Source: a virus. Taken from it: a DNA stretch of 44,143 bases. Within the stretch, counting starts at the first letter, position 1. Each line of letters opens with the position of its first letter. Shown here in pieces: positions 17,070 through 41,009 of the stretch. The notes under the pieces were generated by a model. The model saw nothing but the letters and a program-made list of their open reading frames with translations, was not told where the DNA came from and did no database searches. Position numbers and translations under genes: made by a program. The stretch spans positions 1-44,143 of the IMG/VR virus record IMGVR_UViG_3300031951_000346; one strand, 5' to 3'.

Positions 17070-17803
17070 ACTGGAAAGGGCTTCTTGGCGGTGTGGCCGT
17101 TGGTGTCGGCACCACGCTGAAAGATCGTGCAGATGCAGCGCAGAAAGAGCGGTTGCAAGAACTGGCTTATGCCAAAGAGCAAGTCATTCGCCAGCAGGAT
17201 CAGGCTTTCAGGGCAACCGAAGCTGAGAAGGGCCGCACTTTTGAAGCAACGCAGGGCGAGGCAAAGTCAAAGCGCGATTTTGAAAATGAGCGCTCTTTGC
17301 TTGAGCAGAAGAACCAGTATGAACAGCCAGCCCTTGCGGCAGATATTGAGGCAAAACGGGCCAATGCAGAAGAAAGCCGGGCGCGTGCTAAATATTATGG
17401 CGAGGGCGGCGGCTCTCCTGGTGGCCGTGTTAGCACGCCAGCCGCCATTCAAAAGGCCGACGCAATGGTTGAAGCTGCAAGGATGAGCAACCCGAACCTG
17501 ACGTCTGAGGAAGAGGCAAACATTCGCATGATAGCGTTGGGCGGTGCGCCGAGCGCACGGGATGATGCAAAATCAATTGACGGGCTGTTTAGGATTTATA
17601 CCAAGGAAAACCCACGCATTGACGCTGACCGGCGTTTCAACGAATTGTCTGCCGAAGAAAAAGCCAATTACGTTAGAAATGTTAGCGGTCAATTGACTGG
17701 TCGCAAAACAACCCCATCCCAGGCCACAACGACAGCGACAACGCAAGGGGCTGATGGTGGGGATTGGGTGCGTGATGCAAACGGCAAATGGGTGCGTAAA
17801 TGA
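17066..17803 (+). CDS. Coiled-coil virion protein of the ejection cluster
   Basis: This 245-residue protein opens with a Gly/Val-rich hydrophobic segment (GLLGGVAVGVGTTLKD), then a long charged coiled coil at about residues 20-110 (RADAAQKERLQELAYAKEQV, then RSLLEQKNQYEQPALAADIE). The C-terminal part holds a helical block and a Thr-rich linker, ending GGDWVRDANGKWVRK. This would suit an internal protein anchored in the membrane by its N-terminus and oligomerising by the coil. It overlaps its neighbours by four bases at both ends. The family is unknown. Confidence 0.5.
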   Translation: MNWKGLLGGVAVGVGTTLKDRADAAQKERLQELAYAKEQVIRQQDQAFRATEAEKGRTFEATQGEAKSKRDFENERSLLEQKNQYEQPALAADIEAKRANAEESRARAKYYGEGGGSPGGRVSTPAAIQKADAMVEAARMSNPNLTSEEEANIRMIALGGAPSARDDAKSIDGLFRIYTKENPRIDADRRFNELSAEEKANYVRNVSGQLTGRKTTPSQATTTATTQGADGGDWVRDANGKWVRK

Positions 17804-20800
17804 GAATACGCGGCCCCGATGGCGTGTCATATAATTTGCCTGATGGCTTGTCTGATGATGACATCGCATCATTTCTTGATGAGCGATACGCACCAGAGCC
17901 TGTATCTGCACCAGAAAAATCATTTGGTGAAAAAGCTGGAAACCTTGGGCGCGGCTTTTTGGAAAGCGCCAGCCAAGCGCAGGGCGGTTTATACACAACC
18001 GCAGGTGTAGCGGCTGAACCGTTTTTTCCTGAAACTGGCCAATATCTAAAACAAGTCGGGGCCGATCTGCAAGCGACAGATTTAGGCTATGAGCCGACAA
18101 CCACATTTGAGGATGTTAAACAAGACCCTCTGGGCAACATTGTGCCTTTTGTTGCTGAAACAGGCTTCACCAGTTTGCCGCAAATGGGGACGTATCTTGT
18201 TAATCCTGCTGTTGGCTTATTGTCGCAGACTGGACAAATCAGCCAGCAACGCGCCCAAAATGAAGGCCGCGCTTTGCCGACATTGCAAGATGCGTCAAGG
18301 GCTGCACCGGCTGCGCTGGCATCGAGTGCAATTGAAGGGCTGGGGATTGACCGGATATTCAAAGCAGGGGCTGGTGAAGCCCTCAAACAAGGCATCAAAC
18401 CATTCTTGAAAGATGTGGGCGGCGCTGCTGTCACAGAAGCAATAACCGAGGGCATCCAATCGCCGCTTGAATATGCTGGCGGCACGCTTGGCACAAAGGC
18501 CGGTTTTGATCCTGCTGCTGCGCTTGAGCAATCCGCCGCTGGGGCTTTAACTGGGGCTGGCGTTGGTGGCACATTACGTGCTGGTGTTTCTGGTGTTGAT
18601 GCCTTGCGAGCCAGAGAATTAGTGCCATACGTCAAGCCGGGCGATGTCGAAAGCCCGTTGCCGACTGACCTGATTGCCGAAGGCCGCAAACTGGCCGATG
18701 ATGCCAGCAAAGCGCCGATTGGTGGCGCTGGCCCTGATGCGTCGATCCCAGTGCCCAGGCAAATCACAGGCGCACCGCCGCCGGTTGATGCGTTTGTTGA
18801 TCTGTTGGATGAAGCCGGTAATGTCGTTGGTGAGTGGAATCCTGTTCAGGGTATTGCCCGGCCCAGGGGTTCCGCTGATATGCCAGCGCAGCCTGTGCAG
18901 CCAGAACAGGCGGTGACGATTACAGAGCCAGCAGCGCCACAGGTAGAGCCGCAGCCTGTTCAGGAATTGCCAATTCAAAATACCGCGTCAGAGCAGCAAT
19001 CAGAGATGTTTGCGCCGCCGGTTCAGGATATTGTGCCGCAAACACAGCAAACAGGCGGTTTTGAAGCACCAATTGCACCGCCAAATCCCAACATGCCAAG
19101 GCCGCGTGATGAAGAGGGTCGGACGTATGTTAAAGAAGCACAGGCCGATCTGGCAGACGGGACGCAAATCCCTGTCAAATATGCGATTGTTGAGGCCGAT
19201 AGCCTGATAACATCAAACGATGATGATCTGCGCGAGAACAAAAACTATCCGCAAGAATTGCAGCCACGCAATCGGGATAGAAGCGGCGCGGTTCAACAGG
19301 TGGCCAGTATTGAGAACAACCTGAACCCGCGCTGGCTTGATAACAATATTTTTGCCTCACAGGGTGCGCCGATTGTTGGTCAAGACAATGTTGTTGATAG
19401 CGGCAACGGTCGAACCATTGGCATTCGCCGGGCATATAAATCAGGCAAGGCCGAACCATATCGCAGCTATTTGATCCAGCAATACCCCGAAGCCGCCGGG
19501 TATCAAAACCCCGTTCTTGTTCGCGTGCGTCAGAATGAGATGACGATGGAACAACGCGCCGCGATGAACCGCACGGCGCAGGATGGCGGGACGTTGAAAC
19601 TGTCTGATGCTGAACAGGCACAAGCAGACGCAGCAGAATTAACTGACGATATGCTGGCAATGCTCAAAGGGCCAAGGGTTGACAGCACGGACAATCTGGC
19701 GTTTGTGCGTCGGTTCAATAACCGCGTTTCCGGCGTGAATGATCTGAATGCGCAAACACAGGCTGGTGGTACAATCAGCGCGGAAGGTATCCGCCGGATC
19801 AATAATGCGCTGTTGGCAAAGGCCTATGGTGATAGCAACATCGTTGCATCATTGACAGAAAATCCCGACAACGACATTAAAAATCTTGGCGGCGCGTTGC
19901 AAGATGTAGCCGGGCCGTTCGCACAAATGGCGGCGGAGGCAAAGGCTGGCAAAATCAATCCAGATGGCGATGTGTCAGCAAATCTTGTTGAGGCCGTCAA
20001 ACTGGTGCAGCAGTCGCGCCAGAACGGCACATCCCTTGCGGATACCGTCAAACAAATCAGTCTTGACGGGACAGAGATAAGCCCGATCACGCGGTTGTTC
20101 CTTGATCTGATGTTTCGCAACCGGGAAAGCTACAAGCAGCCAGTTGGGCGGCAAAGGCTGGTTGATGCGCTGCAATTTTATGTCGATGAAATCCGCGCAA
20201 CGCAGCCAGAGCCAGACGTGTTCGGTGAGCCGCCAGTGTCGCCTGAGCAGGTTTTAACGCAAGCTGTCAGAAAGCTGGATGACTCCTTCGCCAAGAAGGT
20301 TTATGAGGATGAAAAGGCGGTTGAGCCGGTTGCTCCTGCCGTGCCGGTAACACCAGCCGAACCACAAGCAAAGGCACCAAAAAATGAAACCGTCACCGGA
20401 ACAAGTGGCCCTGAAAATGTATCAGAAAATGCTGGCGGAAGAAACCGATCCGAAGGAAAAGCTGGTGCTGGAAAGCCGGGTCGCAAATCTACAAAAAAGG
20501 CTCTCGAAGCCAAAGGCTTAAGCGGCGACACGACAGAGCAATTCGACAAGAAAAGCGGCAATCTGGCGCAGCGGATTTATCGCGCCGGGTTGCGGTCGTT
20601 TGGGGCACAATTGCGCGTTGAGCCTGTTGAAGATGTCATTGTTTTCAATGGCAATGAGGCAACAGGGGCGCTTTCTGAGGTCAATCAAGAAGGGTTTTCG
20701 CCGGAATATTGGGCGTCTGTGGTGCTTGGCGGTCGGTCAGATGCGGAAACCATTGCTACGCTGAACCATGAGGGCATTCACTATCTGCGTGCTATCGGGG

Positions 20801-23800
20801 CGCTTGATGGCGTTTGGCCAGCATTGAGCAAGAAGGCGCAGATTTGGGCGCGTGACTTTGGCATCAAGAACGTGCCAGCTTATGCCAATTTAACCGAGGA
20901 TCAGCAGCTTGAAGAAGCGGTTGCGGTGGCTTATGCAAAATGGGCTGGTGGCAATTTACAACAGGCTGGGTTTGCGGCGCGGTTCTTTGAAAACTTGAAA
21001 ACATTTCTTGCCAGAACAAAAGCGTTCTTCCGCAGTGAGAAATTCACGCACTGGGAGGATGTCTTCAAAGACATCAAAACCGGCGCTTATCGCGACGTTC
21101 AGGCAAAAACTGAAAAAGCGCCTGTTGCGGCGGAACCGTTGCCAGCAGCAAGAACAATCTCTTTCCGTCGGAACAGTGCTTTTCTTGCGCCAGCAATATC
21201 AACCTTGTTGCGCAATGATCCGGCTGCGCGTCAACGCATCAACAGCATTGCTGTCATGAAAGAGCATGAGGCCAAGATTGACCGGAACGAAAAGCGTCGG
21301 GCGGTTGTGGCTGGCATTGAGGCCAAACTGCGCGGCGAGATGGAAACGCTGTTAAAGCGCAACGCTGATTTGAAAGATATTCAGTATGACCGCAAACAGG
21401 CTGAGACGATCCAGGACACTACGCGCCAGATAAACGAAAAGAACAAGCAGATTGATGCGCTGGATCGTTCGTATAGAAACGCCGACAATGCCGGTAAGGT
21501 GAAAATCCAGAGCGAAATACAGGCTCTTGAAAAAGAAGTTTCTGCCCTCGAAGATAAGCGCAAGGCGGCTAAAGCTGGCGTTTCCAAAGAAGAAAAGCAG
21601 CGGATTAAAACACGCTTGTCTGAAAACGCACGGTCACTTGAGCGGTTGCAGGATAAACTGGCATCGGCGAACAAGATGCTGGACATCCTCGATGCCAAGA
21701 TTGCCAACAGTGAAGCGGCGCAAGATGCTATTTGGGCCAACATCGAGAAAGACGGGCCGCTGGATATTAAGCCGGGCGATAAGTTTGATGTGTTTGCAAA
21801 ACTTGACGCAGACGGCAAGCCGATTGACACAAAATATTACCCGGCAACATCACAAGCAAAAGCCCCTGATGGTTATACATCGCAAGGCCAGTTTGAAGTA
21901 TGGGGCCAGCCCGGCGGTCGGCCATTGCTCAAGCGTGAATTGTCGGCTGGTGAGCAGAAAGCCCTAAAAGAGTTAAACGACAAACGCGCCGTGCAGCCAA
22001 TGACGGGATTATTCGATCATTTGTATTCACCTGATCGGGATGTTTACGGCAAGGAAGCATCTATGCAGTGGGTAAAGCTGCAATCTGATGACATGATCCG
22101 CAATTTCCAGGATCGTTTTCTTGACCTAACACGATTGGTTGAGTCGGTTGAACAGGCTGGTTTTGTCTTGCCGGACGAAGCCAATGTTGATTTTCTGCGC
22201 CGGACATGGGCGGCAAAGGCAGCGGATCGTATTGAGAAGCTGAAACGCAATTCGGTTGATCCGATTCTGCAAGGGCTGGTGGCGCGTGATATTGATCTGG
22301 CTGAGTTTGAGGAATATCTCTATGCCAAGGTCGCGCCAGAAGTAAACGCTGCCGTTGCCAAGATTAACCCGGCATTCAATGAAGACGAAGGCTCTGGCAT
22401 GACCAACGCCGAGGCGGCGCGGGTGCTTGAGGCCGTTGAACAATCCGGCAAGACGGCTGATTTTGAAGCGATCGCGCAGCTTGTCTGGGACATGAACAAC
22501 AACGCCCTTGACCTGGCGGTTGAGTCCGGCCTGATAACAGCCGATACGGCCAAGGCATACCGCGAAAACACCCCGCATTATGTGCCGTTGCGGGGCAATC
22601 AGGAATTGTTGGGCGATGATCCCGATCTGCCGCGCATTGGTTCCGGGTTCTCTATCAAGGGCGATGAGAGCAAGCGGCGCTTGGGGCGATCCAGCAAGGC
22701 GCAGACGATCCTTGCCTACGCAATCAGCCAGGCAGAACAGACCATTGTTCGCGCTGAAAAGAATGCTGTTTCGCAGGCATTGATCGAATTTGCAACCGCG
22801 TTTCCTGATGAAAATATCTGGACGTTGGAAAAGGTCGAGATGCGCCCAGTGGTGTCAAATGGCATCGTCACAATGCGCCCAGCCAAGGCAATTCAGGATC
22901 GTGATTATACCCTGTCGGCAAAATTTGAGGGCGCAGAGTGGCGGTTGAATTTCAAGAAAGAAAACAAGATTGGCGCTGAATTGGGCAGTGCGTTTAGAAA
23001 CCTTGACGCAAACCAGATGAATGCTTTTGTCCGCGTCATGCGCGTGTTTACGAATGTGTTCAAGGCAATCAACACCCGGTTTTCACCAAACTTCACCCTG
23101 ACCAATTTGCAGCGCGATCTTGGTTTTGCAGCAATTACCCTGACCAAGTTTGAAGAAGAAGGGCTGGTTAAGGATGTCATGCGCGATTATGGCCGCTCTG
23201 TGAAGGCCGCCTATCGCGCTGCCAAGGGTGAATTTACTGGCGAATGGGGCCAGTGGGCGGATGAGTTTGGCGCGGCAGGGTCAAGGACGGCTATCATTGA
23301 ATTGAAAGCTGTCGCCGATCTTGCGGCCAATCTTGAGCGCGATCTCAAAAATATGAAGTCGGGCATAACCCCAAAGAAGGTTTTTGACACAACCCTGCGC
23401 ATGATTGATGAGGTTAATAGCGGGATTGAGGTCGGGTTGCGCTTGGCTGTTTATAAGAATCTGCGTCAGCGCGGCTACACAAAAGAGAGGGCGGCCAATG
23501 CGGCCCGGCGTGTCACGACAGATTTTAATCTGCGCGGTAAACTGTCGCCAACAATGAATGCGCTCTATGCCTTCTCTGGCGCGGCGGTGCAGGGCACAAC
23601 CGAAGCCTTGAAGGCCCTGACACATAAAAATGTTCAGGTCATTTCTGGCGGCCTTGTTGTGGCTGGGGCCATGATGGCGCTTGTTAATGCCCTGATCTCG
23701 CCAGATGACGAAGACGGCCAAAGTGTTTACAGCAAAATATCGGAATCTGATAAATCCCGCAAATTGGTTTTTGTCTTGCCCGAAGGCTTGGCTACCAAGG

Positions 23801-24696
23801 AAATGCCGTATATCCGGCCTGTCACCCTGCCATCATTTTTCAGCATGTTCTGGAATTTGGGCCGACATATCGCCGAAGCCGCGCTGCAAGTGGAGACACC
23901 AAGCGAAGCGGCTGGGCGTATGGCAATGAATGTCATTGACAGCATAAACCCGCTTGGCGGAGCACAAAGCTGGTGGACGCTTGTTGCCCCGACAATTCTT
24001 GATCCTGGCGTTGAATTGCGCCTGAACCAGGACTGGACGGGCAAACCGATTGTGCCGGAGCATGGGAAATACGATTACCGGCCTGACAGCCAAAAATATT
24101 ATGCCAACACGTCCGAGATTTCAAAAGGCATTGCCCAGTCGCTGAACAGTATGACTGGCGGCAGTGACGTTGAAAAAGGGCTGGTTGATGTGTCGCCAGC
24201 CACGCTTGACTATCTCTTTGGTTACGCAACCGGCGGCACAGGGCGCTTTTTCAAGGGGCTGGTTGATTATGCTCAAGGCATTGCCGATCCAGTGCGTGAG
24301 AACAAACCATCATCCCTGCCTCTTGTCGGGCAGTTTCTGGGCAATGACATGGCATGGTATCCAGCACGCGCCTTTTATGATCGTGCGGCAAAGATTGATG
24401 CTTTTGCTGAATACGCCAAGCAATACGAAGATGCCGGGCGCAATCGTGAATTGAATGCCCTTTATGAAAAAGATGGCCGCATGGACGATATGTCGGCCAC
24501 GCTTAAAGAGAGCCGCCGTGATCTGAAACGGGCTAAATCTGACCGCGCAGAAATAGAAGTCGATTATGCCGAGAAGCGGATCAACCGGGCAGAATATGCA
24601 AAGCGTCTTGAAAAGAACGACGCTGAACAAAAGGCTATCTTTGATGGTTTCAACAAAGAGTGGAATGACTACAACAAGAAAGGCGTTATAAAATGA
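17800..24696 (+). CDS. Giant polyvalent ejection protein with DdrB-ParB-like, zincin and LPD38 regions
   Basis: This 2298-residue protein is the largest in the window and starts ATG at 17800. The N-terminus (DGVSYNLPDGLSDDDIASFL) is a short motif common on phage ejection proteins. Residues about 430-640 resemble the DdrB-like ParB domain (VVDSGNGRTIGIRRAY near 530). A zincin-type metallopeptidase motif HEGIH lies at residues 990-994, with a candidate third ligand in LEEAVAVAY (E1038 or E1039). Residues about 1195-1315 are a coiled coil. Residues about 1740-2050 match large polyvalent-associated domain 38 (KAINTRFSPNFTLTNLQRDL), with a hydrophobic segment near 1947-1966. The C-terminus is a charged helix. 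Such proteins are injected with the DNA and may act in the cell at once. Domain limits are approximate. Confidence 0.8.
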   Translation: MRIRGPDGVSYNLPDGLSDDDIASFLDERYAPEPVSAPEKSFGEKAGNLGRGFLESASQAQGGLYTTAGVAAEPFFPETGQYLKQVGADLQATDLGYEPTTTFEDVKQDPLGNIVPFVAETGFTSLPQMGTYLVNPAVGLLSQTGQISQQRAQNEGRALPTLQDASRAAPAALASSAIEGLGIDRIFKAGAGEALKQGIKPFLKDVGGAAVTEAITEGIQSPLEYAGGTLGTKAGFDPAAALEQSAAGALTGAGVGGTLRAGVSGVDALRARELVPYVKPGDVESPLPTDLIAEGRKLADDASKAPIGGAGPDASIPVPRQITGAPPPVDAFVDLLDEAGNVVGEWNPVQGIARPRGSADMPAQPVQPEQAVTITEPAAPQVEPQPVQELPIQNTASEQQSEMFAPPVQDIVPQTQQTGGFEAPIAPPNPNMPRPRDEEGRTYVKEAQADLADGTQIPVKYAIVEADSLITSNDDDLRENKNYPQELQPRNRDRSGAVQQVASIENNLNPRWLDNNIFASQGAPIVGQDNVVDSGNGRTIGIRRAYKSGKAEPYRSYLIQQYPEAAGYQNPVLVRVRQNEMTMEQRAAMNRTAQDGGTLKLSDAEQAQADAAELTDDMLAMLKGPRVDSTDNLAFVRRFNNRVSGVNDLNAQTQAGGTISAEGIRRINNALLAKAYGDSNIVASLTENPDNDIKNLGGALQDVAGPFAQMAAEAKAGKINPDGDVSANLVEAVKLVQQSRQNGTSLADTVKQISLDGTEISPITRLFLDLMFRNRESYKQPVGRQRLVDALQFYVDEIRATQPEPDVFGEPPVSPEQVLTQAVRKLDDSFAKKVYEDEKAVEPVAPAVPVTPAEPQAKAPKNETVTGTSGPENVSENAGGRNRSEGKAGAGKPGRKSTKKALEAKGLSGDTTEQFDKKSGNLAQRIYRAGLRSFGAQLRVEPVEDVIVFNGNEATGALSEVNQEGFSPEYWASVVLGGRSDAETIATLNHEGIHYLRAIGALDGVWPALSKKAQIWARDFGIKNVPAYANLTEDQQLEEAVAVAYAKWAGGNLQQAGFAARFFENLKTFLARTKAFFRSEKFTHWEDVFKDIKTGAYRDVQAKTEKAPVAAEPLPAARTISFRRNSAFLAPAISTLLRNDPAARQRINSIAVMKEHEAKIDRNEKRRAVVAGIEAKLRGEMETLLKRNADLKDIQYDRKQAETIQDTTRQINEKNKQIDALDRSYRNADNAGKVKIQSEIQALEKEVSALEDKRKAAKAGVSKEEKQRIKTRLSENARSLERLQDKLASANKMLDILDAKIANSEAAQDAIWANIEKDGPLDIKPGDKFDVFAKLDADGKPIDTKYYPATSQAKAPDGYTSQGQFEVWGQPGGRPLLKRELSAGEQKALKELNDKRAVQPMTGLFDHLYSPDRDVYGKEASMQWVKLQSDDMIRNFQDRFLDLTRLVESVEQAGFVLPDEANVDFLRRTWAAKAADRIEKLKRNSVDPILQGLVARDIDLAEFEEYLYAKVAPEVNAAVAKINPAFNEDEGSGMTNAEAARVLEAVEQSGKTADFEAIAQLVWDMNNNALDLAVESGLITADTAKAYRENTPHYVPLRGNQELLGDDPDLPRIGSGFSIKGDESKRRLGRSSKAQTILAYAISQAEQTIVRAEKNAVSQALIEFATAFPDENIWTLEKVEMRPVVSNGIVTMRPAKAIQDRDYTLSAKFEGAEWRLNFKKENKIGAELGSAFRNLDANQMNAFVRVMRVFTNVFKAINTRFSPNFTLTNLQRDLGFAAITLTKFEEEGLVKDVMRDYGRSVKAAYRAAKGEFTGEWGQWADEFGAAGSRTAIIELKAVADLAANLERDLKNMKSGITPKKVFDTTLRMIDEVNSGIEVGLRLAVYKNLRQRGYTKERAANAARRVTTDFNLRGKLSPTMNALYAFSGAAVQGTTEALKALTHKNVQVISGGLVVAGAMMALVNALISPDDEDGQSVYSKISESDKSRKLVFVLPEGLATKEMPYIRPVTLPSFFSMFWNLGRHIAEAALQVETPSEAAGRMAMNVIDSINPLGGAQSWWTLVAPTILDPGVELRLNQDWTGKPIVPEHGKYDYRPDSQKYYANTSEISKGIAQSLNSMTGGSDVEKGLVDVSPATLDYLFGYATGGTGRFFKGLVDYAQGIADPVRENKPSSLPLVGQFLGNDMAWYPARAFYDRAAKIDAFAEYAKQYEDAGRNRELNALYEKDGRMDDMSATLKESRRDLKRAKSDRAEIEVDYAEKRINRAEYAKRLEKNDAEQKAIFDGFNKEWNDYNKKGVIK

Positions 24697-32046: not shown

Positions 32047-32408
32047 CCACTATCACTATCATCTGGGCAGCCATCTTCGGCGCACTGGTCAATAGAGCGC
32101 GGGGACATGACTGGGGCATCAGCACGCAGTTTAATCGCATCCTGTTTGGCGTTGCCTGGGGCTTGACCATTGGCGCTGCCGGGTTCCCGTTCTGGCCTCT
32201 ATTCATCGTCTCCGGCTGGCTGTCGTGCATATTCGGCCATGGCGCACATCAGCGGATGCACAAGCAAGTATATGGCCAGCAGTTCGATCACACGGAAAAA
32301 CTGACCCGCTGGCTGCCGCATGTGGCCGGGCCGTGGCGTGATGGCTGGGCGACGGTTGTGCTTGTTTTCTATGATGGTGAACTGGTTTACAGCCATAAAG
32401 CTGTTTGA
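32043..32408 (+). CDS. Membrane protein of the lysis cluster, C-terminus replaced by antisense of hsdR
   Basis: The coupled start ATG 32043 gives 121 residues. Two to three hydrophobic stretches are visible (ITIIWAAIFGALVNRARGHD, then ILFGVAWGLTIGAAGFPFWP, then LFIVSGWLSCIFGHGAHQ). A position after the spanins suggests a lysis function such as a holin, but the sequence is not of a known holin class. From about residue 102 (base 32346) the frame runs antisense through the hsdR fragment, so the last 20 residues (ATVVLVFYDGELVYSHKAV) are foreign and the native C-terminus is lost. Whether the hybrid works is unknown. Confidence 0.6.
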   Translation: MTTITIIWAAIFGALVNRARGHDWGISTQFNRILFGVAWGLTIGAAGFPFWPLFIVSGWLSCIFGHGAHQRMHKQVYGQQFDHTEKLTRWLPHVAGPWRDGWATVVLVFYDGELVYSHKAV

Positions 32409-32792
32409 TTTTGGATTATCAAAATCCACCAGCCACACTTTGTCACCCGCAATGCTTCCATCAGGACGTGTATATTCTACATCTACCCCATCCACCAACA
32501 AACGATGGAATAGACGGTTATCTTCGATCATCTCAGGTGCGGCAGATCGTGTTGCTTTACGGAACGCGTCATCAATGGCTTCGCTCGGTATTTTTGGGTT
32601 AATCCGCGCAAGAGCCGAGCGCAGCTCATCCTCAAGCACAACTTGCGAATAATCCTCTGCGCCCGTAAGCGGATTGATACGCGGCAAGGTGCTGCCGTGG
32701 CTGTAGCTATAGTCTAGCTCCTGAAGCCATTCCAATGCAGCTTGTTCAACTACGTCTTCATTAAAATTGGTCACATTTTCCCTTTTACTCAT
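32199..32792 (-). pseudogene. hsdR: Truncated type I restriction subunit HsdR (N-terminal 149 residues)
   Basis: The frame starts ATG at 32792, overlapping the stop of the DUF2326 gene by eight bases. Residues 1-149 follow the HsdR N-terminus: EQAALEWLQELDYSYSHGST, YSQVVLEDELRSALARINP, LFHRLLVDGVDVEYTRPDGS and FMAVNQFTIIENKHNRRP. In intact proteins this continues into the nuclease strand with an ExK motif, which is absent. The homology stops near 32346, and the last 48 residues are antisense to the phage membrane protein. The helicase motor and nuclease are lost, so this fragment cannot restrict DNA. A residual regulatory or decoy role is possible but unproven. Confidence 0.85.
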
Positions 32793-34518
32793 TGAACCTA
32801 AATCCCATAAGGCTGTCTTTTGGGTCTTGGTCTTTAAGTGTTAAACGAATAAATCTATTAACATCGAACTCGCCACTGAAATCATCCCTAGGAAGTGCGT
32901 CTGAGTTAAAGGCACAAATATATTGGAAACCACTTTCACATGCTTTCCGATGTGCATGCTCTAAAGCCTGTGCGGTTTGTCTAGAGTCTACCCCATCAAA
33001 GATGGTACTATCATGTACTAAAAAATTAATCAGACCGCGTTTTGCAAACAAATTAACTAACATGAGGTCATAGCAAAAGATTTTCATTTTACCGACGCCT
33101 TCGCTACTACTGCGGGGTATCTCAACATCAAAACTATAGCCGTTGTCCGATACGTTAATTATTAGGTTGCCAGACTCGTTATAAAGAGCTTGTGAATTTT
33201 CATTGAAGCCAGCAACAGCCTTTTCCCATTCGGTTCGTGATTGTTCATAATCTCTCTGGAGCTTGGTTTCTAATTCAATTTTTTCAGCCTTAATTTCCTT
33301 CTTCCGTGTGGACATCTCTTGGATATCTGAAATCCGTTGACGTATTTCTTCGAGCTTTGCTTTTTTCTCCAAAAGACGCTCCTGAAGCACCATGAATTCC
33401 TCTAATGCTCCATGCGTACTAAGCACAGACATCAACTCTGCCCGCTTTGTAGTTTCCGATTTTACAATCCGATCATTCTCTGAGATTTGGTTCTTAAGCT
33501 CTTCGATCTCAGCTTGCAAAAAATGCCTCCTATTTTGCACTATTTCATTATGAAATTTCTTGGCTTCTGCGAGCGTTTTTTTAACCGTATCACCAAAGGT
33601 CAGTCCTGCTTCCTGATAAAGAATCTCAACGGCAGAGGAATCTGGAGCTTGCTCGGAGTGAACAGAATCCTGATAACGTTCTAGCTTCCTACGCAGCATA
33701 AGATTTTTATTGGATGCATCGTGAATATTACGAGTTAGCGTGTTTGCCTGCTCTTGGATTTGCTGATATTGGGGGTGCACTTTAAATTCAGAAAGAGCGG
33801 ATTTTTCTTTATCAAATTCTATCTGCAATCTTACGCGTTCTGCTTCAAGTTCGCCTTTGGAGGATACTATCCCGGTTTTCACCGCTGCATTAAGAGAGAT
33901 TACGGCCTTATTTTTATCTTTTATTTCCTGTACATCAGCGGCATGATCCCAATTTAATCCTAGAAGAAATGCATTATGCACCTGTGAGTTCCAAGCGGGC
34001 TGCCCTCTAAAGTAGCTAAAGGGCGTACTGTAAGCATCAACGCCACTTCTTACAAAATAAGAAATCAAATTTCTAAAGGAAGGAGCGTATTTTGTACGGC
34101 TAATGCTTGAAAGTCCAAAGAGGCAGATTCCTAGTAATTTTTTCCAGTCTACAGCTTTATAAAATTCAAACCCATCCTCTTGGTCTTTTTCTGGTGCGAA
34201 TGGTAGCTTGGTTAAGTTTCCTTGAACTTTAATAATCCCATGATTTCCAATGCTTCTTGCTGCGGTAATGCGTTCACCAAAGAGATCCAATTCAATATAA
34301 AAGATCCAATTTTTTATTGTTTCTAAAGGCAGGATTTTTTTATTTGAATCTGCCCCTAAGCAAAAATGGATGATATTAATTAGACTAGTCTTTCCCAGCC
34401 CATTTCTTGAATCTTTCTTATCAGACTCGCTTTTTTTATCAGCCAATATAATGTTTAAACCGCTCTGAAATTCAACGGCTTTGAACCTAGGGTCACTTGC
34501 ATATATGCGGTAAATCAT
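32785..34518 (-). CDS. ABC-3C system ATPase with DUF2326 domain
   Basis: This 577-residue protein is an SMC/ABC-type ATPase. Walker A is RNGLGKTSL at residues 38-46. A central coiled coil (about residues 190-430) includes KGELEAERVRLQIEFDKEKS and ERLLEKKAKLEEIRQRISDI. The C-terminal DUF2326-type region holds GVGKMKIFCYDLMLVNLFAK and the LVHDSTIFDGVDSRQ motif at about residues 500-514. Families of this kind are the ATPase of ABC-three-component systems, predicted bacterial anti-phage systems, often near restriction genes. It overlaps the middle-component gene by four bases and hsdR by eight. No third (effector) gene is present. Its codon use and AT-rich sequence are unlike the flanking phage genes. 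Confidence 0.85.
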   Translation of the reverse strand: MIYRIYASDPRFKAVEFQSGLNIILADKKSESDKKDSRNGLGKTSLINIIHFCLGADSNKKILPLETIKNWIFYIELDLFGERITAARSIGNHGIIKVQGNLTKLPFAPEKDQEDGFEFYKAVDWKKLLGICLFGLSSISRTKYAPSFRNLISYFVRSGVDAYSTPFSYFRGQPAWNSQVHNAFLLGLNWDHAADVQEIKDKNKAVISLNAAVKTGIVSSKGELEAERVRLQIEFDKEKSALSEFKVHPQYQQIQEQANTLTRNIHDASNKNLMLRRKLERYQDSVHSEQAPDSSAVEILYQEAGLTFGDTVKKTLAEAKKFHNEIVQNRRHFLQAEIEELKNQISENDRIVKSETTKRAELMSVLSTHGALEEFMVLQERLLEKKAKLEEIRQRISDIQEMSTRKKEIKAEKIELETKLQRDYEQSRTEWEKAVAGFNENSQALYNESGNLIINVSDNGYSFDVEIPRSSSEGVGKMKIFCYDLMLVNLFAKRGLINFLVHDSTIFDGVDSRQTAQALEHAHRKACESGFQYICAFNSDALPRDDFSGEFDVNRFIRLTLKDQDPKDSLMGFRFNE

Positions 34519-37766: not shown

Positions 37767-38018
37767 TCATTTATCCTTTGCTGTTACAAACCGTGCCCGT
37801 GGGAACTCGATCACGTTCTCACCGGCCTCACTGATGTCGATGGCCTCTTGTAAAGCCAGCGGGATTTTCTCTTGATTGGCCGCCTCAATAAAGGCATCAT
37901 TCAGGCGCTCAAATATGGCATCAAACACACCACGGTCAATCGGTATGGTGTCGCTGCCTAATTTCCCGATGCGCTCAAGGTCATCAAGAAGACCCGATAG
38001 TGTCAAGGCGATGGACAT
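37767..38018 (-). CDS. Small acidic protein of unknown function
   Basis: This 83-residue protein overlaps the GcrA-like gene by 16 bases and ends one base before the ligase start. It is helical and acidic (ALTLSGLLDDLERIGKLGSD, then FDAIFERLNDAFIEAANQEK), with a short basic end. No family is recognised. It sits between a regulator and an RNA ligase and is probably co-expressed with both. Confidence 0.55.
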   Translation of the reverse strand: MSIALTLSGLLDDLERIGKLGSDTIPIDRGVFDAIFERLNDAFIEAANQEKIPLALQEAIDISEAGENVIEFPRARFVTAKDK

Positions 38019-38596
38019 GGCGTAACCCCCTCTGGTGGCTGTGGCAATCTGTAAGCTCTTTTGTAATGCTTCTCGCAGTAAGGCAGTTTACCGTCCCGAT
38101 CCCTGCGGCAGAACCGAAAACCAGCTTTCCCCGGGTGCCCCACCGGCCAGCGGCATTGCTCAGTGGTAAGCGCCATAACAGCAGCCAAGGTATCCGGCAT
38201 ATACCGCTCACCCTTTGGCTCGGGGATTTTGTAAACAGGCTTTGTTTTACCCTTGTAAATAGGCTTGGGCTTTGGTTGCGGTGGACGTGAAGCAAGCTTC
38301 TGCCGCCCAAGCCCCAGCAGTCGCAACTTATTACGAACCCCCTGCGGTGATTTTCCGACAATGGCGGCAATCTGGTCTGACGTCATGCCGTTGCCGTGCA
38401 GTGCTATGATCTTATCAACCATCTCCTTAGGAAAAGCCGGGCTGTTTTTCTCTTTTTTGAGCTTGAGTATTCGTATGCGTTTTTTAACAGAGTCCAAAGA
38501 CCGCCCAAGCTTTTCCGCTATCTGCCGATTGGTTAGATTGCCCCGGCTTTGTTTGATGATCTGATCCTCAGCCGGGGTAAATGGGTTGTTGCTCAC
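38003..38596 (-). CDS. GcrA-like regulator with extra N-terminal HTH
   Basis: This 197-residue protein has three parts. Residues 5-47 form a Myb/SANT-like HTH (FTPAEDQIIKQSRGNLTNRQ, then IAEKLGRSLDSVKKRIR). Residues 53-98 form a GcrA-type HTH (EMVDKIIALHGNGMTSDQIA, then AIVGKSPQGVRNKLRLLGL). After a Pro/Lys linker, residues 147-183 carry the GcrA signature CRWPVGHPGKAGFRFC, then KLPYCEKHYKRAY. The first HTH is an extra domain compared with host GcrA of about 170 residues. It probably targets host or phage promoters through sigma70 and DNA. It overlaps the first gene of the operon by four bases. Confidence 0.8.
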   Translation of the reverse strand: MSNNPFTPAEDQIIKQSRGNLTNRQIAEKLGRSLDSVKKRIRILKLKKEKNSPAFPKEMVDKIIALHGNGMTSDQIAAIVGKSPQGVRNKLRLLGLGRQKLASRPPQPKPKPIYKGKTKPVYKIPEPKGERYMPDTLAAVMALTTEQCRWPVGHPGKAGFRFCRRDRDGKLPYCEKHYKRAYRLPQPPEGVTPCPSP

Positions 38597-39297: not shown

Positions 39298-39639
39298 TTA
39301 AAACCAAGTGGCCACGTTAAAAAACATTCGGCGCTTAGGTTTTGGTTCGCGCTCACTCCAGTCTGGCACATGAAGCTGACCACGATATGGTTGCATATCA
39401 AGCGCGACAGCTTTTCCATTTCTCTCAATTTTGATTATATCAAGGTTGTCTGGCATCCCGCCCCGCGAATTAAGAATATTGTCAAAATTATTATCATGAG
39501 CGCTGTATTCTGGCCCTTGCCACACCAGTCTTGTGTAAGAAAAATGCTCTCGATACTCGTCTGATATAACAAGCACATCTCCGCGCCGTAACAACCCATC
39601 ACAAATAAACTTTTTCACTGTTGGTAGCACTTCAGTCAT
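39298..39639 (-). CDS. Member 3 of the PTVPEFL...RIERNG paralogous family
   Basis: ATG 39639 follows an AGGA site, giving 113 residues; a start further upstream lies inside the preceding gene. The core is LPTVKKFICDGLLRRGDVLV, then SDEYREHFSYTRLVWQGPEY, NNFDNILNSRGGMPDNLDII and KIERNGKAVALDMQPYRG. The ending differs from the other members by a 20-residue extension rich in basic residues. It overlaps the next member by eight bases, a tandem duplication. The function is unknown. Confidence 0.6.
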   Translation of the reverse strand: MTEVLPTVKKFICDGLLRRGDVLVISDEYREHFSYTRLVWQGPEYSAHDNNFDNILNSRGGMPDNLDIIKIERNGKAVALDMQPYRGQLHVPDWSEREPKPKRRMFFNVATWF

Positions 39640-39934
39640 TGTATTCCTGCCCCTTTGCAACCACCTTGCCATTTCGCTCAATGCGGATTATGTGGGTCGA
39701 TAATTTGCATCCATTTCTAGAAAAAAGATACCAGCCTCTTTCTGAAAAATTACCAAAATCAGTTGTTTCAATTGGGTGGTTCTTGTATAAGCCTCGCTCT
39801 GTGAATTCTGTTTGCCCAAAGCGATTCAAAACCAGAATATCCCCTCTTTGCACACCATTACGCAAAAACTCCGGCACCGTTGGCAGCCGTGACTGCTTGC
39901 GCTGGGATAGGTGTTTTAGATATTGGATCATCAC
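39632..39934 (-). CDS. Member 4 of the PTVPEFL...RIERNG paralogous family
   Basis: This 100-residue protein starts ATG at 39934, overlapping the stop of the dUTPase fusion (ATGA). The core is clean: LPTVPEFLRNGVQRGDILVL, then NRFGQTEFTERGLYKNHPIE, TTDFGNFSERGWYLFSRNG and THIIRIERNGKVVAKGQEYN. This is the shortest full member and shows the family best. Basic residues are frequent at the start (KHLSQRKQSR). The function is unknown; nucleic-acid binding is possible given the Arg/Asn-rich end but unproven. Confidence 0.65.
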   Translation of the reverse strand: MMIQYLKHLSQRKQSRLPTVPEFLRNGVQRGDILVLNRFGQTEFTERGLYKNHPIETTDFGNFSERGWYLFSRNGCKLSTHIIRIERNGKVVAKGQEYND

Positions 39935-40680
39935 GCCACCCCCGTCGAGCCAAAGCCGCCCGTTCGTTCTGTTTCGTCAAGTTCATCGACCTGTTCAAGC
40001 ACAACTTCTGGCAGTTTGATGATTTTCATCTGGGCGATGCGGTCGTCAGGCTCAACAATAAAGTCACGGATGCCGCTGTTGTATAGAATAACGCCAATCT
40101 CGCCGCGATAATCACTATCAATCAGGCCGGGGCTGTTGGTGATGGTGATCCCATACTTCAACGCAAGGCCGGATCGTGGTTGTATCTCGCCAGCGTATCC
40201 GGCGGGAATTGCCATTGCCAAGCCGGTCTTGATTAGACGTTGCTCCCCCGGCGGTATCAAGTCACCCTCCAAAGCCGCCAGGTCAAAAGCCGCACTGCCA
40301 GCCGTGGCGTATTGCGGCATCTTGGCGCGTGGGTCTAAGATTTTGACTTTTACGGTGGGGGTCATTATCGATGGTTTGTTCTCAAGATCATTAAGGCAGT
40401 TGTTAACCATTGTGATGATGTCCTCGTCCCATCTGAGTAAATGATCGACTCGCGCAATGCTACTCATGATCGTGGTGTGATTGCGGCCTGACAGCGCCTT
40501 GGCAATCCGTGTTAGAGAATACCCTATTTTCCGGTAGGCAATCCAGCACGCAATGTGCCTAGCTTCCGAAACGCATTTTGTCCGGTTTCGTTCAACAATC
40601 AGTGTTTTGTCAATGCCGGTGTTTTGAGCCACCACCGACAAAATCGTGTCAAACTTCCTGCGCGGCGCGTGGGTTGTCAT
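39931..40680 (-). CDS. dut: DnaA domain IV fused to dUTPase
   Basis: This 249-residue protein has two parts. Residues 25-82 match the DNA-binding domain IV of DnaA (ARHIACWIAYRKIGYSLTRI, then AKALSGRNHTTIMSSIARV), including the GRNHTT signature. Residues 106-249 are a complete trimeric-type dUTPase with all five motifs: AGSAAFDL, PRSGLA, GLIDSDYRGEIG, RIAQMKI and RTGGFGSTG. The dUTPase keeps uracil out of DNA and makes dUMP. No ribosome-binding site precedes M106 (ATG 40365), so a fused protein is the likely product. The DnaA part could bind DnaA boxes at host or phage origins. I know of no such fusion as a named family. Confidence 0.85.
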   Translation of the reverse strand: MTTHAPRRKFDTILSVVAQNTGIDKTLIVERNRTKCVSEARHIACWIAYRKIGYSLTRIAKALSGRNHTTIMSSIARVDHLLRWDEDIITMVNNCLNDLENKPSIMTPTVKVKILDPRAKMPQYATAGSAAFDLAALEGDLIPPGEQRLIKTGLAMAIPAGYAGEIQPRSGLALKYGITITNSPGLIDSDYRGEIGVILYNSGIRDFIVEPDDRIAQMKIIKLPEVVLEQVDELDETERTGGFGSTGVA

Positions 40681-40683
40681 TGC

Positions 40684-40833
40684 TCAAAACTCCCTCAATG
40701 TGTCTGTAAACTTAACCGGTGTTTTAAGCCCGTCAAGAAACGCCTCGATGTTCTTCAACTTGCTCTTGCTGCGGAACCCGTCCGTTATTAGGCGGCGCAG
40801 TTCGGCCTCTTGTTCTGGGGTCATGCGAGTCAT
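40684..40833 (-). CDS. Small protein of unknown function
   Basis: ATG 40833 follows a strong GGAGGGG site, giving 49 residues. The sequence is helical and charged (MTPEQEAELRRLITDGFRSK, then NIEAFLDGLKTP). It overlaps the stop of the small membrane gene upstream (ATGA) and ends three bases before the DnaA-dUTPase gene. No family is recognised. Confidence 0.55.
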   Translation of the reverse strand: MTRMTPEQEAELRRLITDGFRSKSKLKNIEAFLDGLKTPVKFTDTLREF

Positions 40834-41009
40834 GGTTTTGCCCCTCCACAAGCTGGTTTCAATAATACCGCGCACACCGCCGGGTCAACTTTCCCGGCAA
40901 TGCAGGTGTTGAATTTCTTTTCAGCCCCAGTTGGTGAGAATGCAGCAAGGGCAAAGAGTGCAAACACGAAGATTAAGGCCCAGACAATGGCCCAGCCAAA
41001 TTCATCCAT
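40830..41009 (-). CDS. Small single-span membrane protein
   Basis: This 59-residue frame starts ATG at 41009, overlapping the ATPase stop by one base (TAATG). Residues 5-25 form a membrane span (WAIVWALIFVFALFALAAF). The tail holds three Cys (TCIAGKVDPAVCAVLLKPAC) that could form disulfides in the periplasm. Coupling at both ends supports it. The function is unknown. Confidence 0.55.
   Translation of the reverse strand: MDEFGWAIVWALIFVFALFALAAFSPTGAEKKFNTCIAGKVDPAVCAVLLKPACGGAKP

Follow-up and report, generated by a model that had tools for sequence, protein, structure and literature searches.

The question raised by this locus was whether a DnaA-type DNA-binding domain and a dUTPase are genuinely encoded as one phage protein and, if so, what such a protein might do. 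The window, meaning the whole stretch of DNA analysed, comprised 44,143 nt of an uncultured bacterial virus (IMG/VR record IMGVR_UViG_3300031951_000346).

Identification and verification of the fusion gene

On the minus strand, positions 39931–40680 formed a single uninterrupted frame of 249 codons with the ATG at 40680 and the stop at 39931–39933. The encoded protein consisted of a complete DnaA domain-IV fold (residues 11–101), a linker of about four residues, and a dUTPase (residues 106–249). The coordinates, the strand, the 249-aa length, and the ATG start given by the first-pass annotation were all exact. The two-domain pattern appeared in none of 100 shuffles of the window.

A second assembly, IMGVR_UViG_3300032093_000450 (L002/L221), carried the same frame with 0 mismatches across the 10,210 bp surrounding the fusion gene; therefore, a frameshift or assembly artefact confined to one assembly was excluded. 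The window was incomplete: because the two ends of this second contig overlapped both ends of the window, adding about 12.4 kb of IMGVR_UViG_3300032093_000450 (L221, 1–12504) to it closed a circle with a length of about 56.5 kb. A third sample yielded a contig that agreed with it at 99.99%. The DnaA_C-dUTPase fusion is real and unusual. No published DnaA-dUTPase fusion was found in the open literature searched, where this one is apparently unreported.

The DnaA-type domain

The DnaA domain-IV-like DNA-binding domain (residues 11–101; 40378–40650, minus strand) matched the Pfam Bac_DnaA_C family over a core of residues 11–78 with 59.4 bits (3.5e-16), above the curated cut-off of 31.5. Residues 11–98 aligned without gaps to residues 377–464 of E. 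coli DnaA (1J1V), which placed the natural end of DnaA at residue 101, matching the end of E. coli DnaA; for this numbering, the 1J1V chain was assumed to start at E. coli residue 374. AlphaFold modelled the DnaA half alone with a pLDDT of 91, and the full-length model showed a six-helix DnaA domain IV followed by the dUTPase fold; its confidence was low only at residues 1–7, residues 103–105, and the C-terminal arm (241–249). The GRNHTT signature named in the first-pass annotation was present at residues 65–70 (40471–40488, minus strand), corresponding to G-R-D433-H434-T435-T436 of E. coli.

In E. coli DnaA, the base-reading residues at the DnaA box are reported to be R399, P423, D433, H434, T435, and H439 (PMC7561715). 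Their equivalents in the fusion were R, T, N, H, T, and S, so that three of the six were kept and three were changed (P423T, D433N, and H439S), whereas 59 of 87 relatives kept five or six. The equivalents of R399, R407, H434, T435, and T436 were all retained, and that of K415 was Y. The mutations R399A and T435M cause a box-binding defect in E. coli (PMC5742627), and both positions were kept in the fusion. D433 and L438 read position 7 of the box (PMC8235120); since their equivalents were N and M, the DnaA-box specificity of the domain has probably shifted. DNA binding by the fusion is likely, and a classical DnaA-box specificity is uncertain.

The protein shared the fold of domain IV and the core residues for DnaA-box contact with the bacterial initiator DnaA, but it had none of domains I–III. 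Only DnaA_C and dUTPase-type domains were found by Pfam, and the AAA+ ATPase of domain III was absent. The fusion cannot act as an initiator of the DnaA type.

The window contained 3 copies of the motif TTWTNCACA where 4.95 were expected, and no cluster of DnaA boxes rose above chance in the window or in the rest of the circle. Despite this absence of enrichment on the phage, the target of the domain could be host DNA.

The dUTPase domain and the junction

The second half was a complete dUTPase (residues 106–249; 39934–40365, minus strand). The Pfam dUTPase profile matched residues 119–247 at 1.5e-30, above its curated cut-off, and the NCBIfam match of this half was dUTP diphosphatase (5e-47). 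As the first-pass annotation had proposed, all five motifs were intact in the same frame as the DnaA-type domain: PRSG (168–171), D188, Y191, DRIAQ (213–217), R239, and GGFGSTG (241–247), including the key residues S170, Q217, and F243. In Foldseek, the single-chain AlphaFold model matched the jelly-roll fold of solved dUTPases with a target-normalised TM of up to 0.95, and solved relatives shared 40–50% identity. Judged from its family, the dUTPase half would be trimeric and active. It shared all five motifs and the fold with trimeric dUTPases (PF00692; TIGR00576), from which the fusion differed by an additional 105-residue N-terminal DnaA-type DNA-binding domain.

The junction, KPSI (residues 102–105; 40366–40377, minus strand), appeared as a low-confidence hinge (pLDDT below 50 at 103–105). 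M106 aligned with the start of free dUTPases, including the first residue of the free dUTPase L072. Because the natural end of DnaA was residue 101 and the start of free dUTPases corresponded to M106, the two proteins were joined end to end, four residues apart. Since the junction thus combined a natural C-terminus with a natural start, a single lost stop codon between neighbouring early genes would be the simplest origin; codon 102 (AAA) was one base from TAA. The host genes dnaA and dut lay about 6–8 kb apart in opposite directions in several sphingomonad chromosomes (L017, L018, L023, L045, L056, L058, and others). An origin by rearrangement of these neighbouring genes was not supported, since the phage domain was nearer to phage proteins in a tree of few columns.

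Gene neighbourhood and translation starts

The fusion was the sole dUTPase and the sole DnaA_C domain on the circle. Upstream lay a small gene of 63 aa (40684–40875, minus strand) and downstream a gene of 100 aa (39632–39934, minus strand), both without a family match. Because the stop of the 63-aa gene was 3 nt before the ATG of the fusion, the two may share one transcript; the downstream gene overlapped the stop of the fusion by 4 nt and was assigned to the same operon. Many genes of this phage abutted or overlapped by 4 nt. The near-identical 15-nt stretches CCGGTGTTTTGAGCC/CCGGTGTTTTAAGCC were found at 40616–40630 in the fusion gene and at 40716–40730 in the 63-aa gene, once each.

The same minus-strand block held an RNA ligase gene and a homologue of the cell-cycle regulator GcrA (38003–38596, minus strand; PF07750, 6e-16), which hints at an alphaproteobacterial host; the N-terminal part of this protein also matched ParB and sigma-70 region 4 helix-turn-helix profiles. 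GcrA homologues are also found in phiCbK-like phages (PMC9437464). The rest of the circle encoded Prim-Pol, AAA_24, YqaJ recombinase, and helicase proteins. At 32199–34518 (minus strand), a 577-aa protein with DUF2326 and CTD10 (ABC-three-component) domains adjoined a 197-aa HSDR_N protein, a pair that looks like a phage-borne defence-type module. A 2298-aa protein at 17800–24696 (plus strand) matched different large phage families of unknown function in its N- and C-terminal halves. Just past the right end of the window, a pentapeptide-repeat protein was encoded (L002, 1981–2442, plus strand); some pentapeptide-repeat proteins act in gyrase protection.

The full-length start was preceded by the Shine-Dalgarno sequence GAGGGAG (40690–40696, minus strand), 9 nt from the ATG, with a duplex energy of −8.0 kcal/mol. 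The first-pass annotation had stated that no ribosome-binding site separates the two domains. This held for M106, which had almost no Shine-Dalgarno pairing (−2.7), but not for M91 (40408–40410), where GAGG stood 11 nt upstream (40422–40425, minus strand) with a value of −5.9, about equal to the median (−5.6) of 31 gene starts chosen within the window. It is possible that a shorter dUTPase of 159 aa is also made from M91.

Distribution of the fusion and of related proteins

Free-standing DnaA_C proteins were common in environmental phages, at least 183 being confirmed by scan. Of these, 80 were kept for inspection, and in none of the 80 loci, scanned for both domains, was a dUTPase fused to the DnaA_C protein or located within about 3 kb of it. 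Their neighbours were often genes for replication initiation, helicase loading, primase, and methyltransferase. The nearest neighbours of the fusion's DnaA_C domain in a weakly resolved 96-column tree were the phage proteins L133, L163, and L164 and not host DnaA, and the top Foldseek neighbours of the DnaA half were free-standing phage 'DnaA C-terminal' proteins. Like these proteins (PF08299, uncultured Caudovirales; NCBIfam NF004688/PRK06030 hypothetical proteins), the fusion has a phage-borne DNA-binding domain without AAA+; unlike them, it carries an in-frame dUTPase, whereas theirs end after the domain or bear other extensions.

Searches of 50,697 phage records, none of which covered 80% of a query of residues 1–177, and of 72,556 plasmid records revealed no other intact fusion. 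None was found in genome contigs by a search reaching close relatives only, or in 385 alphaproteobacterial and 399 proteobacterial genomes (784 drawn) with a threshold of E <= 1e-42, chosen to drop dUTPase-only matches and used without a positive control among the genomes. When about 2.9 million viral contigs were scanned with four degenerate two-domain patterns that tolerated linkers up to about 5 codons shorter or 15 codons longer, the sole true fusion among the inspected matches was that of this phage. Long matches such as those in Klebsiella phage Centimanus and Pavpe01 were rejected, because the region upstream of their dUTPase held stop codons or lacked a DnaA domain, as was a Peribacillus plasmid match over residues 49–247, in which the dUTPase was a separate gene starting at the M106 equivalent.

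In BFVD, the top structural match was A0A8S5RQ76 (264 aa), which aligned across 257 columns and was not among the 50 best structural matches to the DnaA half alone. This protein may have a similar two-part layout. It was the one structural lead from the search for the same architecture in other phages that the first-pass annotation had proposed; the architecture itself was not found. Within the searched sets, the fusion was seen intact in one phage population only.

Proposed function and alternative explanations

The preferred reading, held with moderate confidence, is that a free-standing phage DnaA_C protein and the sole dUTPase of the phage were fused end to end into a single early protein, in which the dUTPase is tethered to DNA. 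The fusion would be expressed early and its dUTPase half would trimerise as its family does. Up to three DnaA-type helix-turn-helix domains would hang from the trimer on short flexible hinges and hold the dUTPase on DNA, presumably at the sites used by free-standing phage DnaA_C proteins inside phage replication modules. The dUTP would be cleared next to replicating phage DNA, and the DnaA_C domain would keep its original replication or regulatory role. Against tethering stand the absence of box enrichment and the Shine-Dalgarno-like site at M91, which could release free dUTPase.

The nearest working analogy, though not a relative, is the betaretroviral nucleocapsid-dUTPase, e.g., that of Mason-Pfizer monkey virus, which likewise has about 250 residues with some 95 N-terminal nucleic-acid-binding residues followed by a dUTPase and is reported to be a homotrimer (PMC4261571 and its ref. 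29). It differs in being a gag/pro frameshift product with a nucleocapsid protein where the phage fusion has a helix-turn-helix. A bolder and improbable version of tethering would be a site-directed dUTPase, a trimer with its own sequence-specific DnaA-type readers that cleans the pool at phage replication sites or shifts its grip on DNA with the dUTP level.

Neither variants nor homologues of the fusion turned up in the searched sets, and this singleton therefore gives no evidence that selection keeps the halves together. For this reason, the main rival to a tethered dUTPase is an accidental stop-loss fusion, in which one base change joined two neighbours, the halves kept their old jobs, and the linkage is functionless. 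It is tentatively entertained as the foremost alternative: the junction lies exactly at the natural end and the natural start, codon 102 is a single base from a stop, the fusion was seen in one population only, and adjoining genes are frequent in this phage. However, both halves are undamaged, and if the dUTPase is trimeric, tethering must alter its behaviour somewhat. Somewhat more doubtful is the production of two proteins from one gene, the full-length form and the 159-aa dUTPase from M91, which would combine in trimers that carry fewer than three DNA-binding domains. The site at M91 is within the range of the real starts of this phage, but 8.6% of 163 internal ATGs had equally good Shine-Dalgarno pairing by chance, M91 lies inside the last DnaA helix, and the start of the full-length form is stronger. 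A start at M91 is compatible with any other reading, and the confidences placed in the rivals overlap.

The first-pass annotation had suggested that trimers might occupy DnaA boxes with high avidity and so block initiation of replication in the host. Avidity through trimerisation is plausible given the dUTPase family, the core contacts R399, H434, and T435 are kept, the GcrA homologue hints that the phage may influence the cell cycle of its host, and prophage proteins inhibiting initiation exist, e.g., the YfdR cluster (PMC4776307). Against these points stand the three changed base contacts including D433N, the Y at K415, the weakly resolved grouping of the domain nearer to phage proteins than to host DnaA, and the lack of box enrichment on the phage; moreover, a plain DnaA_C protein would suffice, leaving the dUTPase superfluous. 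Nothing points to a block of the host origin, which has no direct support; the suggestion is considered unlikely. Least probable is a dUTP-responsive regulator, in which nucleotide binding or closing of the C-terminal arm of the dUTPase alters the grip of the DnaA_C domain on DNA as a switch set by the dUTP level. Phage dUTPases are known as regulators, e.g., as SaPI Stl antirepressors (PMC5608427, PMC4914113), and the dUTPase of T5 serves a second function apart from catalysis (PMC10815766), but no coupling is visible in the sequence and the hinge is flexible in the AlphaFold model.

Significance of the fusion

Without a conserved homologue, the claim made for this protein stays modest. Free-standing DnaA_C proteins are widespread in environmental phages but have been little studied, and the fusion adds to them an example joined to an enzyme. 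The enzyme dUTPase keeps uracil out of DNA and is usually viewed as free and soluble. If the improbable site-directed version is true, the fusion would be the first case in which an initiator domain directs a nucleotide-pool enzyme to defined DNA sites. With its sole dUTPase linked to a domain that reads DNA, this phage would offer a simple test of whether the place of dUTP destruction matters.
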